Assembly: GCF_018406645.1 (NCBI RefSeq)
Contig: NZ_AP024546.1
Location: 930,001-994,000 of the forward strand
Source: Lysobacter helvus
GTDB taxonomy: Bacteria; Pseudomonadota; Gammaproteobacteria; Xanthomonadales; Xanthomonadaceae
Direction of reading: 5' to 3'
DNA: 64,000 nt
Shown here: piece after piece, positions 51,227-60,462 of the stretch
Numbering within the stretch: the first letter of the stretch is position 1
Layout of the letters: the number at the start of each line of letters is the position of its first letter
Position numbers and translations under genes: made by a program
The notes under the pieces: generated by a model
The model's database searches: none
Told to the model about the DNA's origin: nothing
Seen by the model: the letters and a program-made list of their open reading frames with translations, nothing else

Positions 51227-51706
51227 TTAGCCGCCCGAACCCGAGCGGGCCTTGGCCTTGCCGTTGGCGGCGAGGTAGGCCTTGTATTCGTCCTGCGTCA
51301 GCTGGCCGTCGGCGTTGGCGTCAGCCTTGGTGAACGCCTTCGTCAGGCTCTGCACCGGCGCGGCTTCCGACACGCTCAGCGAGCCGTTCTGGTCGACGTC
51401 GAGCTCCGACCAGTTCTTCTTCTGCGGCGTGGCAGGCGTGGCCGGCGTCGCGGGCGTCTGCGCCATCGCGTCGGTCGCGCTCTGCGGGGTGGCCGGGGTG
51501 GCGGGCGTCGCCGGGGTGGCGGCGTTGACGTTCGCGTTCGTGTTGGCCTGCGCATCCGTCGACTGCGTGGTCGTCGTGGATTCGGTGGTCGTCGTGGCCT
51601 GCGGGGTCGCCGACTGCGGCGTGGTCTGGGCCGACTGCGCGAAGGCGAGCGGCGCGGCGAGCGTCAGGGCCAGGGCGAAATAAAGCGGGCTGCGATTGGA
51701 CTTCAT
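51227..51706 (-). CDS. Exported EF-hand protein with Ala-Thr-Pro repeats
   Basis: A 159-residue exported protein. After a signal peptide (YFALALTLAAPLAFAQS) comes a long Ala/Thr/Pro region (PATPATPATPQSATDAMAQTPATPATPATPQKK). Two EF-hand-like loops follow: DVDQNGSLSVSE and DANADGQLTQDE, so the protein probably binds Ca2+ in the periplasm. GGAGAT precedes the ATG by 8 bases. A second EF-hand gene lies 700 bases away. Confidence 0.82.
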   Translation of the reverse strand: MKSNRSPLYFALALTLAAPLAFAQSAQTTPQSATPQATTTTESTTTTQSTDAQANTNANVNAATPATPATPATPQSATDAMAQTPATPATPATPQKKNWSELDVDQNGSLSVSEAAPVQSLTKAFTKADANADGQLTQDEYKAYLAANGKAKARSGSGG

Positions 51707-52110
51707 GCGTCGATCTCCATTGCGGGGGAACAGTGCGTTCGCGGTGGGGGCGACAGATGCCCTCGGAACGGCGAACACCTTGCACCGGCGCGTCTGAATC
51801 CAACCGACCGCGCGATCGGTGCCTCCACATCGTGTTAACCACTGCGCGCACGTTCTGCGTTAACGGCCGGCGCGCGATCGTGCGATGCGGCGATCGCGGG
51901 CGTTCGCGCGCGTTGCGCGCAGATAGCCCTTCGATGAATGGAGAGTGCAGCGGCCGATGTCATCGCCGCGCGAATGGCCGCTGCGGATTGCGTGAAGGGC
52001 GCCCGGGATTACGAAAACTTTACTTGCGCCATGCACGCCGCTTAATGCCCCGGCCCCCACGATGGATCGCGAAAACCCACGCCATCGCACACGCCTCCGA
52101 GGATTCCCCC
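51707..52110. other. 404-base intergenic region without a gene
   Basis: No coding frame with a plausible start was found here. Two GTTAAC hexamers (51834-51839 and 51859-51864) lie 19 bases apart, and TTTACTTGCG with TTAAT further on could form a weak promoter for the next gene. The region separates two divergent genes and probably holds both promoters, but no motif was identified with confidence. Confidence 0.5.
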
Positions 52111-52420: not shown

Positions 52421-52756
52421 TCAGGGCGACTTCGGCTTCGACGTCGCCTTCGCCTTCGCATGGAACTCGTTGTCGGTGACGTAGCCATCGCCATCGGCGT
52501 CCATCGCCGCGAATCCCGAATCGAATGTCGGATCCGCACTGGCTTCGCTCGAACTCACGCGTCCGTCCTTGTCGGTATCCAGCCGCGCCATCGCCGTGTC
52601 GGGTGACGGCGTGGCCGCCTTCACCGCTTCCTGGTTGCCGCCGGTCTTCTTCGCCTGCGGCGTCGGCGTTTCCGGCGGAGACGCGGACTGCGCGACCGCC
52701 ACGCCGGCGATCGAGACACCCAGCGCAATGCCGAGCAGTGTTTTCGTGCCTGTCAT
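52421..52756 (-). CDS. Exported EF-hand protein
   Basis: A 111-residue exported protein with signal TLLGIALGVSIAGVAVAQSAS. After a Pro/Lys linker there are two EF-hand-like loops: DTDKDGRVSSSE and DADGDGYVTDNE, both with canonical acidic positions, so Ca2+ binding is likely. The C-terminus is basic (FHAKAKATSKPKSP). AGGAG sits 8 bases before ATG 52756. A 16-base inverted repeat CCCCGCAGGTCGCGGGG lies in its leader. Confidence 0.85.
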   Translation of the reverse strand: MTGTKTLLGIALGVSIAGVAVAQSASPPETPTPQAKKTGGNQEAVKAATPSPDTAMARLDTDKDGRVSSSEASADPTFDSGFAAMDADGDGYVTDNEFHAKAKATSKPKSP

Positions 52757-52856
52757 GTGCGCGCTCCTCTCGATGGATCCCCCGCAGGTCGCGGGGGTGT
52801 CCATGTAACGCAACACGCGTCAACACACTGCAACGCGCCATTGCAGAGCTAGCGGC

Positions 52857-56562: not shown

Positions 56563-56795
56563 GGTGGTTCCCCGTGGCTCCCCGGGTGCCCTGCCCCGGC
56601 CTCGCGCGGCATGCCGCGGCGCGATCGGCGCACAGGGTAGAGAGCGCCCCTTGTCCGAACTGTGCGCATGGTCACCGGCACGATGCAACCCGGGTCGCAG
56701 CACTGAACCATTCACAGGTCCATCGTCACGGCGCATGCACGCGGTCCTCGCGAGCGTGCGACCACGCCGGCCCGGCCGGTGCACGGGGGACATCG

Positions 56796-57071
56796 ATGGA
56801 CAAGGAAGACCTGGGGCCCGAGCTCGAGGCCGAACTGGAAGCGCTCGACCGCGAGATGCCGCGCATGCAGTCGATGTCCGGGGGCATCTTCGCCCTGGCC
56901 ACCGCATGGGCCGAACGCCACGCCGCCATCCTCGAACGCACGCCGCCGTCGATGCGCGCCGCGATGGAATCGCGCCTGCATCGCATGGGCATCCGCTGGG
57001 GCGTCGTGAGCGGTTCGCGCATGACCGCGCAATTTCCGGCGATCGGCCTGCCGCGCAAACGCATCGCGTAG
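56796..57071 (+). CDS. Small hypothetical protein
   Basis: A 91-residue protein with an acidic helix (EDLGPELEAELEALDREMPRMQSM) and a basic C-terminus (RLHRMGIRWGVVSGSRMTAQFPAIGLPRKRIA). No motif is recognised. ATG 56796 with GGGGGA 6-11 bases before it is plausible. It lies alone between the divergent large GGDEF-EAL gene and the Q/N-rich gene. Confidence 0.55.
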   Translation: MDKEDLGPELEAELEALDREMPRMQSMSGGIFALATAWAERHAAILERTPPSMRAAMESRLHRMGIRWGVVSGSRMTAQFPAIGLPRKRIA

Positions 57072-57218
57072 ACGCAACGTGCAAGCGGCAGGCGTGCGTG
57101 TTCACGCCGATGAACTCCGTTAGTTGCGACTTCACCGCACGCGCCCCTCGCGCTAACGCGCTGCTGCGTAACGTGCGTCGCATCGGCCAAGCCGGCCGAA
57201 TTGCAAGGAGTCACGAAG

Positions 57219-57713
57219 ATGGCGGGTCAGAACACCACCGGCGGCATGGGCCAGGACAAGAACCAGAACCAGTCTTCCCAGAACCAGTCGTCGCAGAACA
57301 AGCCGGCACAGAACCAGGCTTCGCAGAACCAGGCTTCCAACCAGAACCAGTCCTCGCAGAACCAGTCCTCGCAGTCGCAGTACTGGAAGGGCCAGTTCCA
57401 GAACGAGCCCTATTACCAGCAGGGCCGCCAGTACGAAGAGTACGAGCAGGCCTACAACACAGGTGAGCAGGGACGTTCGCAGTACGGCACCAGCGGCCAG
57501 ACCTTCGAGCAGTCCGAGAAGAACCTGCGCGCGGACTACGAGAAAACCGCTTCCAGCAACAGCAAGGCGCTGAAGTGGGAAGACGGCGGCAAGCAGGCGG
57601 CGCAGGCCGCATGGGAACGCGCCGGCAGCGCGCAGTCCTCGCAGTCCAGCGACCGCGACATGCAGCAGGGCAAGCAGGGTTCGGACGCCAGTTCGAACAA
57701 GCGCACCAGCTAA
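57219..57713 (+). CDS. Gln/Asn/Ser-rich low-complexity protein
   Basis: A 164-residue protein. Residues 1-55 are a Gln/Asn/Ser repeat (NQSSQNQSSQNKPAQNQASQ) typical of prion-like or disordered chains. The second half has a more regular pattern: YWKGQFQNEPYYQQGRQYEEYEQAYNTGEQG, FEQSEKNLRADYEKTA, and LKWEDGGKQAAQAAWERAG, aromatic and acidic residues at regular spacing. AAGGAG sits 9 bases before the ATG. It has no signal peptide and no known family. Confidence 0.7.
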   Translation: MAGQNTTGGMGQDKNQNQSSQNQSSQNKPAQNQASQNQASNQNQSSQNQSSQSQYWKGQFQNEPYYQQGRQYEEYEQAYNTGEQGRSQYGTSGQTFEQSEKNLRADYEKTASSNSKALKWEDGGKQAAQAAWERAGSAQSSQSSDRDMQQGKQGSDASSNKRTS

Positions 57714-57731
57714 GCAACACCGTTGCACACG

Positions 57732-57764
57732 AATCGCCGACGCCTCGCGCGTCGGCGATTTTTT
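57732..57764 (+). terminator. Intrinsic terminator after the Q/N-rich gene
   Basis: AATCGCCGACGC and GCGTCGGCGATT arms around CTCGC are followed by a T-run (TTTTTT). It lies 18 bases past the stop and just before the convergent hybrid kinase gene. Confidence 0.9.
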
Positions 57765-57769
57765 GTGCG

Positions 57770-60127
57770 TCAGGCTTCGCGCCGCTGGATGCGCAGCAAT
57801 GAATCCACCAGCGTCACCAGCGCCGCCGGATCCACCGGCTTGACCAGGTGCGCGTCGAATCCCGCCTCCGCGCTGCGCTGTCGATCCGACGCCTGCCCGC
57901 GCCCCGTGATCGCCACGATCACCAGCGCCTCGCCGCCCGCAGCGCGCATGCGCCGGCACACTTCGAGGCCATCGACGCCGGGCAGCCCGAGGTCCAGCAA
58001 CACCGCATCGGGCGAGAACGTGCCCTGCCATACCAGCGCGGACGCTGCGTCGTAGGCGGTGCGCACCGTGTGCCCTGTCATGCGCAGGTAGAGCGCCAGC
58101 GAATCGGTGTGTTCGCGGTTGTCGTCCACCACGAGCAAGCGCAAGCGCTGGTGCGCGGCTCCCATGGGGCCGCCGGACACCTCGTCGTCGCTGAAATCCA
58201 CCGCGTCGCCATCGTGCAGCGGCAAGCGCACTTCGAACTCGCTGCCCTGCCCCAGGCCGCCGCTGCGCGCGAGCACGGTGCCGCCGTGCAGTTCGACGAG
58301 GCTGCGCACGAGCGTCAGCCCGATGCCGAGGCCGCCCGCCGCGTGTCCGATGGAATGCTCGGCCTGGTTGAACAGGTCGAACACGCGGTCGAGTTCATCC
58401 GGCTCGATGCCCAGCCCGTTGTCGCGCACGCGCAGCACCACGTCCGCGTCCTGGCGCGTCGCCGACAGCACGATGTGGCCGCCGGGGTTGGTGTACTTGG
58501 CGGCGTTGTTCAACAGGTTCGACAGCACTTGCGCGAGGCGCACGGGATCGGCGCGCAACGGCAGCGGCAGCGTGGGCATGTCGATGTCGAGCGTGTGGTG
58601 CGCGGCATCCAGCAACGGACGACTCGTCTCCACCGCGCGCTCCACGACGTCCTGGATCGTCACCGCCTGCAGGTGCAACGGCACCATGCCGCGCGTGATG
58701 CGCGAGACTTCCATCAGGTCGTCGACCAGGCGCACGAGTTGCGCGACCTGGCGTTCCATCACCGCGTGCAGGCGCTCGCTGTCCACCGCGGCGCCATCGC
58801 CCTCGTCCGCCATGCGCAGGATGTGCAGGCAGTTGCGCAGCGGCGCGAGCGGATTGCGCAGTTCGTGCGCGAGCGTGGCGAGGAATTCGTCCTTGCGGCG
58901 ATCGACGTCGCGCAGCGCCACTTCGGCCAGCTTGTGGTCGTGGATGTCGGTGGTCGAGCCGTACCACGCAGTGACCTGGCCGTCGTCGTCGCGCATCGCC
59001 TTGGCGCGCACGAGGAACCAGCGATACGCGCCGTCGCGGCGGCGCAGGCGCAGCTCGACATCGAAATCCGCACCGGCATGCGCGCGCGCCCAGGCTTCGG
59101 CGGCGAGGTGGCGATCGGCGGGATGGATCGCGCCGTTGCGCGAGTCGCGATCCACGCGTACGGGCAGGCCGGTGTATTCGAGCCAGCGATCGCTGAGCCA
59201 GGTCAGTTCGCCGTCGGCGCTGGCGCTCCACAGGATCGACGGCGTGGCGTTCGCCACGTAGCGGAAGCGTTCTTCGCTCACGCGCAGCGCGTGCTCCGTG
59301 CGCGTGCGCAGGGTGATGTCGTCGAACATCACCGCCACGCGGTTCGAGCCCGGCGCGCCGTACGGGAAGGCATGCACTTCGTACATGCGGTCGTCCAGCT
59401 CGCGCGCGGGCAGGACCTCGCGCACCGGCTGGCCCGTGCGCGCCACGCGGCCGTAGAGTTCGAACCAGTGCTCCTCGTGCGACGGGGCGAGTTCGCGCAT
59501 CCGCTTGCCCACCGCATCGCGCAGGCCGGTGTGGCGCTCGAAGGCGGCGTTGGTTTCCAGGAAGCGGTAGTCCACCGCGCGATCGCCGTCGAACAGCACT
59601 TCGATCACGCAGAAGCCCTGGTCGATCGTCGCGAACAACGAACGGCAACGTTCCTCGCTCGCGCGCAACGAGGCGATCGCCTGCTCGGTGTCGCCGCCGT
59701 GCACCAGCGGTGCGCGCTCGTCCAGTTCCAGCAACACCACCGTCGATGCGCGCAATACGCCGGCCGTGTCGCGCACCGGGCTCAGGCGCATCAGCATGCG
59801 CGCGGTCGCGCCCTGCACGCGCGCCAGGCGCACGTCGAGCGCGATGGGGCCGTGGCGCAGGCGCAGGTCGTGCAGCGCCGATGTCACCGCGGGGCGCGCG
59901 TCGTCCTCCACGAGGTGCGACAGGTCGACGCCGCGCAATGTTTCGATGCCACGCCCGAGCAGTCGCGCGGCAGCGGTGTTCACGTCGACGATGCGGCCGT
60001 GCGCATCGGTGCGCAGCAGGCCGATGTCCGCGCGATCGCCGATCTCCAGCCACCGCTCCGACGGCGCCGGCGTATCCGGCGTGCGGCCGTCGTCAGGCGC
60101 GGGCACGGGGGCGGACGGGAGTGTCAT
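57770..60127 (-). CDS. PAS-domain hybrid sensor histidine kinase with C-terminal receiver
   Basis: A 785-residue soluble hybrid kinase. Three PAS-like domains occupy about residues 25-135, 155-275 and 285-405 (the last with YTGLPV and HPADR and a PAC-type DGAYRWFLVRAKAMRDDDG). The HisKA domain has HELRNPLAPLRN near residue 430, and HATPase has LSNLLNNAAKYT, DNGLGIEPDEL and GGLGIGLTLVRSL. The receiver (about 665-780) has VVDDN, DAVLLDLGLPGVDG and LVKPVD. No membrane helix is seen, so it senses a cytoplasmic cue. It overlaps the thioredoxin gene by 4 bases. Confidence 0.93.
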   Translation of the reverse strand: MTLPSAPVPAPDDGRTPDTPAPSERWLEIGDRADIGLLRTDAHGRIVDVNTAAARLLGRGIETLRGVDLSHLVEDDARPAVTSALHDLRLRHGPIALDVRLARVQGATARMLMRLSPVRDTAGVLRASTVVLLELDERAPLVHGGDTEQAIASLRASEERCRSLFATIDQGFCVIEVLFDGDRAVDYRFLETNAAFERHTGLRDAVGKRMRELAPSHEEHWFELYGRVARTGQPVREVLPARELDDRMYEVHAFPYGAPGSNRVAVMFDDITLRTRTEHALRVSEERFRYVANATPSILWSASADGELTWLSDRWLEYTGLPVRVDRDSRNGAIHPADRHLAAEAWARAHAGADFDVELRLRRRDGAYRWFLVRAKAMRDDDGQVTAWYGSTTDIHDHKLAEVALRDVDRRKDEFLATLAHELRNPLAPLRNCLHILRMADEGDGAAVDSERLHAVMERQVAQLVRLVDDLMEVSRITRGMVPLHLQAVTIQDVVERAVETSRPLLDAAHHTLDIDMPTLPLPLRADPVRLAQVLSNLLNNAAKYTNPGGHIVLSATRQDADVVLRVRDNGLGIEPDELDRVFDLFNQAEHSIGHAAGGLGIGLTLVRSLVELHGGTVLARSGGLGQGSEFEVRLPLHDGDAVDFSDDEVSGGPMGAAHQRLRLLVVDDNREHTDSLALYLRMTGHTVRTAYDAASALVWQGTFSPDAVLLDLGLPGVDGLEVCRRMRAAGGEALVIVAITGRGQASDRQRSAEAGFDAHLVKPVDPAALVTLVDSLLRIQRREA

Positions 60128-60462
60128 GCATCCGCCGGCGGATCGATCGCGGCAAGGGCCTCGGCGACGGGCGCCGCGGTGAGCGGCCGCACGATGCGCG
60201 CCACCTCTTCGCCATCGCGCAGGAACACCAACGTAGGCCACAACTTGACGCGGTACGAGCGCCCGAGCGGTTGTCCACGTCCGTCTTCGACTTTCACGTG
60301 TCGCACGTCGTCGTGCGTGGCGAACGCGACTTCGATCGCCGGTTGCGCCGCGATGCAATGCCCGCACCACGGCGCGCCGAATTCGATCACGGCGGGGCCG
60401 GCACGCGCATCGACGTCGTGTCGTGCGGGCTCGGTGGATTCGTAGTTGCGCGCGAACGCCAT
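60124..60462 (-). CDS. Thioredoxin-family protein
   Basis: A 112-residue thioredoxin-fold protein. The active site is WCGHC in FGAPWCGHCIAAQPAIEVAF near residue 35; cis-Pro follows in KLWPTLVFLRDGEEV. WCGHC is a PDI-like or thioredoxin variant of the usual WCGPC. No signal peptide is seen. Its stop overlaps the hybrid kinase start (ATGA), so both are translated from one message, hinting at redox input to the kinase; that is inference. Confidence 0.87.
   Translation of the reverse strand: MAFARNYESTEPARHDVDARAGPAVIEFGAPWCGHCIAAQPAIEVAFATHDDVRHVKVEDGRGQPLGRSYRVKLWPTLVFLRDGEEVARIVRPLTAAPVAEALAAIDPPADA

Follow-up and report, generated by a model that had tools for sequence, protein, structure and literature searches.

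P0001 of Lysobacter helvus is a small hydrophilic protein that joins a disordered, Q/N/S-rich N-terminus to a conserved helical domain belonging to a large, uncurated protein family. The N-terminus appears exchangeable among relatives and may decide where the common domain works. We propose, with confidence about evenly balanced for and against, that P0001 is a protein of desiccation or osmotic-stress protection; its expression, location, partner and protective effect are what we infer. The features of the locus are given below in coordinates of the window, the whole 64,000-nt stretch of DNA that was analysed.

56796 to 57071, + strand: conserved 91-aa gene, a synteny marker with no Pfam or NCBIfam match.
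57205 to 57210, + strand: Shine-Dalgarno sequence AAGGAG, 8 nt before the ATG.
57219 to 57713, + strand: coding sequence of P0001, 164 aa, supported by its ATG start, orthologues and dN/dS.
57219 to 57380, + strand: disordered Q/N/S-rich N-terminus, residues 1-54, from composition and predicted structure.
57264 to 57374, + strand: tandem repeats of 15 bp (30 bp), unit CAGAACCAGTCCTCG, encoding QNQSS.
57381 to 57629, + strand: conserved helical domain of an unnamed family, residues ~55-137, from homology and a model.
57630 to 57710, + strand: polar C-terminal tail, partly conserved (DRDMQ...RTS) in the orthologue alignment.
57731 to 57764, + strand: intrinsic terminator hairpin with U-run, from its folding energy against shuffles.
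57770 to 60370, − strand: convergent gene for a hybrid sensor kinase, identified by sequence inspection alone; its position is shared by three further species.

The P0001 ORF is a real gene. As the initial annotation had stated, it has a good Shine-Dalgarno sequence and a strong terminator: a 13-bp hairpin followed by a U-run, with a folding energy of −30.6 kcal/mol (z of −4.4 against 200 shuffles). The listing of a simple consensus scan did not contain this terminator. The gene was also said to be monocistronic. This is plausible because P0001 has its own terminator, but co-transcription may still occur because the same strand carries the 91-aa gene, whose end is only 147 bp upstream. Conserved blocks were observed upstream, at 57110-57185 of the window, comprising TAACG and TGCGTAAC in four of four species and CGTTAG in three. 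These blocks are a putative shared promoter or regulator site.

Orthologues of the same make-up occur in Lysobacter gilvus HX-5-24, L. lactosilyticus A6 and L. dokdonensis DS-58, such that four of the five genus members compared carry the gene. Its place is conserved: it is flanked on one side by a GGDEF/EAL protein and the 91-aa gene and on the other by the sensor kinase, a thioredoxin-like protein and a lytic transglycosylase, these names being our reading of the sequences. In the exception, G002, the lytic transglycosylase directly follows the 91-aa gene, and the 3.2 kb interval has no similarity to the P0001 gene or the kinase. The adjacency of gene and kinase in the window and the three other species, together with the joint absence of both from the G002 interval, would fit a role for P0001 as an accessory that serves or tunes the signalling of the hybrid kinase. 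However, the two genes are convergent rather than operonic and relatives elsewhere lie beside other genes, making this role very unlikely. More broadly, the neighbours of P0001 in the window are sensor kinases and GGDEF/EAL proteins, with no classic stress genes. A search of the plasmid collection with positions 56700-60000 yielded two short matches and no others, both falling within the kinase gene at 58.8 kb. Elsewhere in the window, two ORFs on the − strand, at 51227-51778 and 52421-52816, were seen by eye to end in EF-hand-like D-x-D-x-D-G repeats, and the middle of one of them is rich in Ala, Thr, Pro and Gln.

The first 55 residues of P0001 had been described as almost only Gln, Asn and Ser. 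The wording is slightly too strong for a proportion of 69%, yet the P0001 frame ranks first among the 585 stop-to-stop ORFs of the window, its best 55-residue stretch containing 40 such residues versus 23 in the runner-up. Residues 11-49 had a pLDDT below 50 in the full-length model, consistent with disorder. The 54-residue tail contains no aromatic residue, no Ile, Leu or Val and three charges; those of the other three orthologues also lack aromatic residues and have at most one Ile, Leu or Val. Across the four Lysobacter species, the tail ranges from 29 to 54 residues, its dN/dS is 0.30-1.78 (five orthologue pairs, the sixth being saturated), and the part before the domain is 44-59% Q+N and 53-73% Q/N/S. 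The composition of the tail is thus kept while its sequence drifts freely.

Two other readings bear on this tail. In the first, it is a prion-like scaffold that self-associates into condensates or amyloid and brings in the helical domain to act as a regulatory switch. P0001 does possess a Q/N-rich region predicted to be disordered. Aromatic and Ile/Leu/Val residues usually drive assembly of the condensate or prion type. The tails have next to none of these residues, vary in length and, in P0001, are built of repeats; the aromatic residues of P0001 lie in the predicted folded domain. These features make the scaffold unlikely and weaken the phase separation or aggregation suggested by the initial annotation, even though, according to excerpts of PMC6400439, bacteria commonly have disordered proteins rich in Q/N, many of which are predicted to be prions. 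In the second reading, the tail is a neutral, repeat-grown linker and only the helical domain matters, in a housekeeping role. A dN/dS of up to 1.78, the 15-bp repeats and the short N-termini that many relatives have instead are as expected of such a linker. Against it, the composition is maintained in four species and Acinetobacter retains a whole separate gene for a Q/N-rich peptide, as described below. We consider the neutral linker possible but doubtful.

In contrast to the tail, which is free to drift, the domain of ~85 residues evolves under purifying selection (dN/dS of 0.22-0.42 over six orthologue pairs). An AlphaFold2 model of the domain, made from only four input sequences, was all-helical, with a pLDDT of 83.9 and a pTM of 0.74. 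It comprised five helices, four of them longer and one short, at positions 4-15, 19-22, 27-44, 51-66 and 79-95 of the model. The sequence pattern is roughly YW..F..EPYY..G..YEDYEPAY..G.E.R....G..F...E..L..DWE....S.L.W..A..A..AAW, and the Trp residues of P0001 are at 56, 120 and 132. The aromatic positions are kept across the four orthologues with the exception of one Tyr replaced by His. They are not, as had been claimed of the second half of the protein, regularly spaced: 15% of 20,000 random placements of the 13 aromatic residues within residues 55-137 were equally or more even, and even spacing was rejected as a feature. By sequence, no relative of solved structure was found (best E values of 0.49 and 0.69). 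Foldseek returned no structural relative for either the full-length or the domain model, an empty list that does not amount to a new fold. Finally, the homologues did not reveal a well-known enzymatic domain, in keeping with the initial annotation.

P0001 had no match in Pfam at an E value of 10 and none in NCBIfam, and no family in either library covers its domain. The earlier statement that no family is known therefore holds for curated libraries, but a large uncurated family exists. P0001 matched a profile of 23 rows with an E value of 2.6e-21; because this profile excluded the Q/N-tailed rows, the match is independent of them. The E values were 3.3e-18 for 12 rows from outside its own bacterial family and 3.5e-8 for three Acinetobacter rows. 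In control searches, none of 2000 domain-shuffled copies and none of the 533 other ORFs of the window matched the domain profile. The 8 invariant columns of a 19-row alignment and the 5 of a 27-row alignment are all kept in P0001. By a profile built without its own orthologues, P0001 is a member of the unnamed helical domain family. A profile comparison of alignments A3 and A2 was left out of the evidence, as the two have rows in common.

Within the same genome, two tandem paralogues carry the domain behind a glycine-zipper N-terminus, and there is a partial fourth match. The domain was detected in 183 of 247 sampled genomes of the bacterial family of Lysobacter (E value of 0.001), 31 of 60 genomes of a sample of relatives (E value of 0.1), 13 of 299 genomes of a phylum sample and, with an Acinetobacter protein as the query, 4 of 274 genomes of a class sample. 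A tblastn search of the plasmid collection with P0001 gave no match at an E value of 0.01, and one with a more central relative found 11 records. Plasmid-collection records with the domain come from Methylibium, Variovorax, Comamonadaceae, Eleftheria, Synechococcus, Pseudanabaena and Acinetobacter. Judged by these matches, the domain occurs in beta-proteobacteria, Acinetobacter and cyanobacteria. Among viral contigs, a protein search found no relative of the domain; one sequence pattern hit a single contig, in which no family-like ORF was seen by eye around the match, and a second pattern hit none. In the open-access literature, no paper on the domain was among the matches listed.

Known protein families were also considered. 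One curated candidate was the sll1863 family of stress proteins (NF052504), which shows weak local similarity to relatives of P0001 and not to P0001 itself. The best E values were 0.0021 for a domain row and 0.0042 and 0.021 for two proteins. Membership was rejected: two relatives scored 17.3 and 15 bits against a curated cut-off of 35, and the P0001 domain had no match at an E value of 1.

The part that precedes the domain differs among relatives. By simple composition labels, the N-termini of 89 domain rows were classified as glycine-zipper (51), short or other (31, including second copies within one protein), Q/N tail (4) and Acinetobacter stand-alone (3). Consistent with this classification, 7 of 19 aligned proteins matched the glycine-zipper family PF13488 at an E value of 0.1. 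The glycine-zipper proteins, found in the same bacterial family, in beta-proteobacteria and in cyanobacteria and annotated as 'hypothetical protein' or 'glycine zipper domain-containing protein', share the C-terminal domain with P0001 but have an N-terminus of the membrane type rather than a soluble, Q/N-rich tail; P0001 is not itself a glycine-zipper protein, lacking any Pfam match. In a protein from a Variovorax plasmid (L043:6001-6756), the domain is fused to a four-helix protein of the DUF2383/PA2169 type, which matches PF09537 whereas P0001 does not. The annotated start of that gene, 6088, excludes part of the domain. Four proteins (L028, L029, L089 and L018) contain two copies of the domain.

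Q/N-rich ORFs are seldom associated with the domain. A scan of 96 loci, mostly covering 1.5 kb on each side, found such ORFs only in the Lysobacter orthologues, in Acinetobacter pairs and in one further genome. In the last, a glycine-zipper domain gene is preceded at ~1.1-1.3 kb, and not directly, by a 48-aa Q/N-rich ORF (L097:6588-6731, + strand). The pairing of a Q/N-rich segment with the domain is thus rare.

In Acinetobacter, the same two parts occur side by side on the same strand, as two genes instead of the one in Lysobacter. In each of the 14 Acinetobacter records that a search of the plasmid collection detected, a gene for a stand-alone domain protein (98-105 aa) follows a gene for a Q/N-rich peptide (46-73 aa, 57-70% Q+N), with a gap of 65-107 bp. 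These records contain three distinct domain proteins and six distinct peptides; they represent two domain lineages rather than fourteen cases, because the domain protein is identical in eleven plasmids. The peptides could not be aligned with the Lysobacter tail. No Q/N-rich ORF adjoins the gene of a glycine-zipper member of the family from A. baumannii (L046). Two groups of records look to be mislabelled: L051 and L052 of 'Acinetobacter phage MD-2021a' (CAKLQH020000001.1) resemble bacterial chromosome contigs (katE, acidophilic-repeat gene and umuD region), and L112-L114, three A. baumannii 'plasmids' of 3.7-4.1 Mb that are among the 14 pair records, resemble chromosomes.

The wider region of the pair was viewed in one chromosomal contig and two plasmids, and 900 bp on each side in the other 12 of the 14 records. 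On the chromosomal contig, the pair adjoins cinA, a dtpC-like gene, katE and the acidophilic-repeat gene dtpA/absA. The dtpC-like gene is just upstream of katE and carries PF14518 (heme-oxygenase-like), and cited work, as far as excerpts of it go, likewise predicts DtpC to be heme-oxygenase-like. On the two plasmids, the pair is accompanied by a catalase, DUF2171 and an 'iron-containing redox enzyme', the one tested example of which carries PF14518. According to excerpts of PMC12742793, the locus ABUW_2433-2443 is relA-dependent and raised on semi-solid medium; judging by gene order, the pair would lie within this locus. Single deletions in the region did not lower drying survival in the two cases reported in excerpts of the respective papers: absA (dtpA) in ATCC 17961 (PMC6181384) and dtpC at 42% humidity (PMC13232832). 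Of the six cluster proteins translated, the 73-aa Q/N-rich peptide is the most hydrophilic, with a mean of −3.02 as compared to −2.45 for DtpA. The portions consulted of PMC10808703, PMC12075148, PMC12811014, PMC10325922 and PMC12604733 do not decide whether this peptide is DtpB.

Some other members of the family also lie near stress-type genes. From the 11 plasmid-collection matches, nine records were opened, and five had such genes within ~5 kb, three had no clear stress neighbour and one had no annotation; these are raw, uncontrolled counts over nine records. A gene for CsbD is ~4.5 kb from the Variovorax DUF2383 fusion. One of the other records has GlsB/YeaQ/YmgE with hemerythrin and BON nearby, another YtxH and Pmp3, another YmgE with ferritin-like and peroxiredoxin proteins, and another hemerythrin. 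Together with the Acinetobacter context, these neighbours provide indirect support for the desiccation or stress protection suggested by the initial annotation.

In a tree of the domain, the four Q/N-tailed proteins grouped into a single clade (100/94), surrounded by sequences from their own bacterial family. The stand-alone forms of Acinetobacter made up a separate clade (98/93), joining an Acinetobacter glycine-zipper relative (98/95). Because the two cases fall in separate clades, the tree, which had 85 columns for 89 rows and whose bootstrap had not settled, favours two origins of the pairing, which would thus have arisen at least twice. If so, the two parts would need each other physically or functionally. 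We therefore suggest, tentatively and with less confidence than for the protective role as such, that the domain and a Q/N-rich disordered peptide make up a recurrent two-part drying protectant, provided in cis in Lysobacter and in trans, by adjacent genes, in Acinetobacter.

P0001 resembles the hydrophilins and bacterial LEA-like proteins, as A. baumannii DtpA and DtpB have been called, in part only. Hydrophilins have a glycine content above 6% and a hydrophilicity index above 1. P0001 is likewise hydrophilic, with 9.1% Gly and a Kyte-Doolittle mean of −1.80, which place it within these thresholds; at 5.5% Gly, the 73-aa Acinetobacter peptide is just below the first. Hydrophilins are also rich in charged residues and mostly without Trp or Cys, according to excerpts of PMC3691520. 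By contrast, P0001 contains three Trp residues, a predicted folded domain and few charges in its tail, and has no acidophilic repeats.

In the mechanism that we propose for protection, the constant part is the aromatic-rich, all-helical domain of ~85 residues and the exchangeable part is the N-terminus. A glycine-zipper, which about half of the observed relatives have, would place the domain at or in the membrane, whereas the hydrophilic, disordered tail would keep the domain of P0001 soluble. The protein would be produced in stationary phase or during drying or osmotic stress, and its domain would bind or buttress a component of the cell. The Q/N-rich tail would act as a hydrophilic spacer or shield, keeping neighbouring molecules from aggregating as water is lost.

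Overall, these data offer a hypothesis open to experiment for an uncurated protein family, which is common in one bacterial family and extends to several other groups. They also point to a possible partner of the small Q/N-rich protein encoded in the katE-dtpC desiccation region of Acinetobacter. If the pairing is functional, a single protective domain could be combined with either a membrane anchor or, in its stead, a disordered, low-complexity segment.
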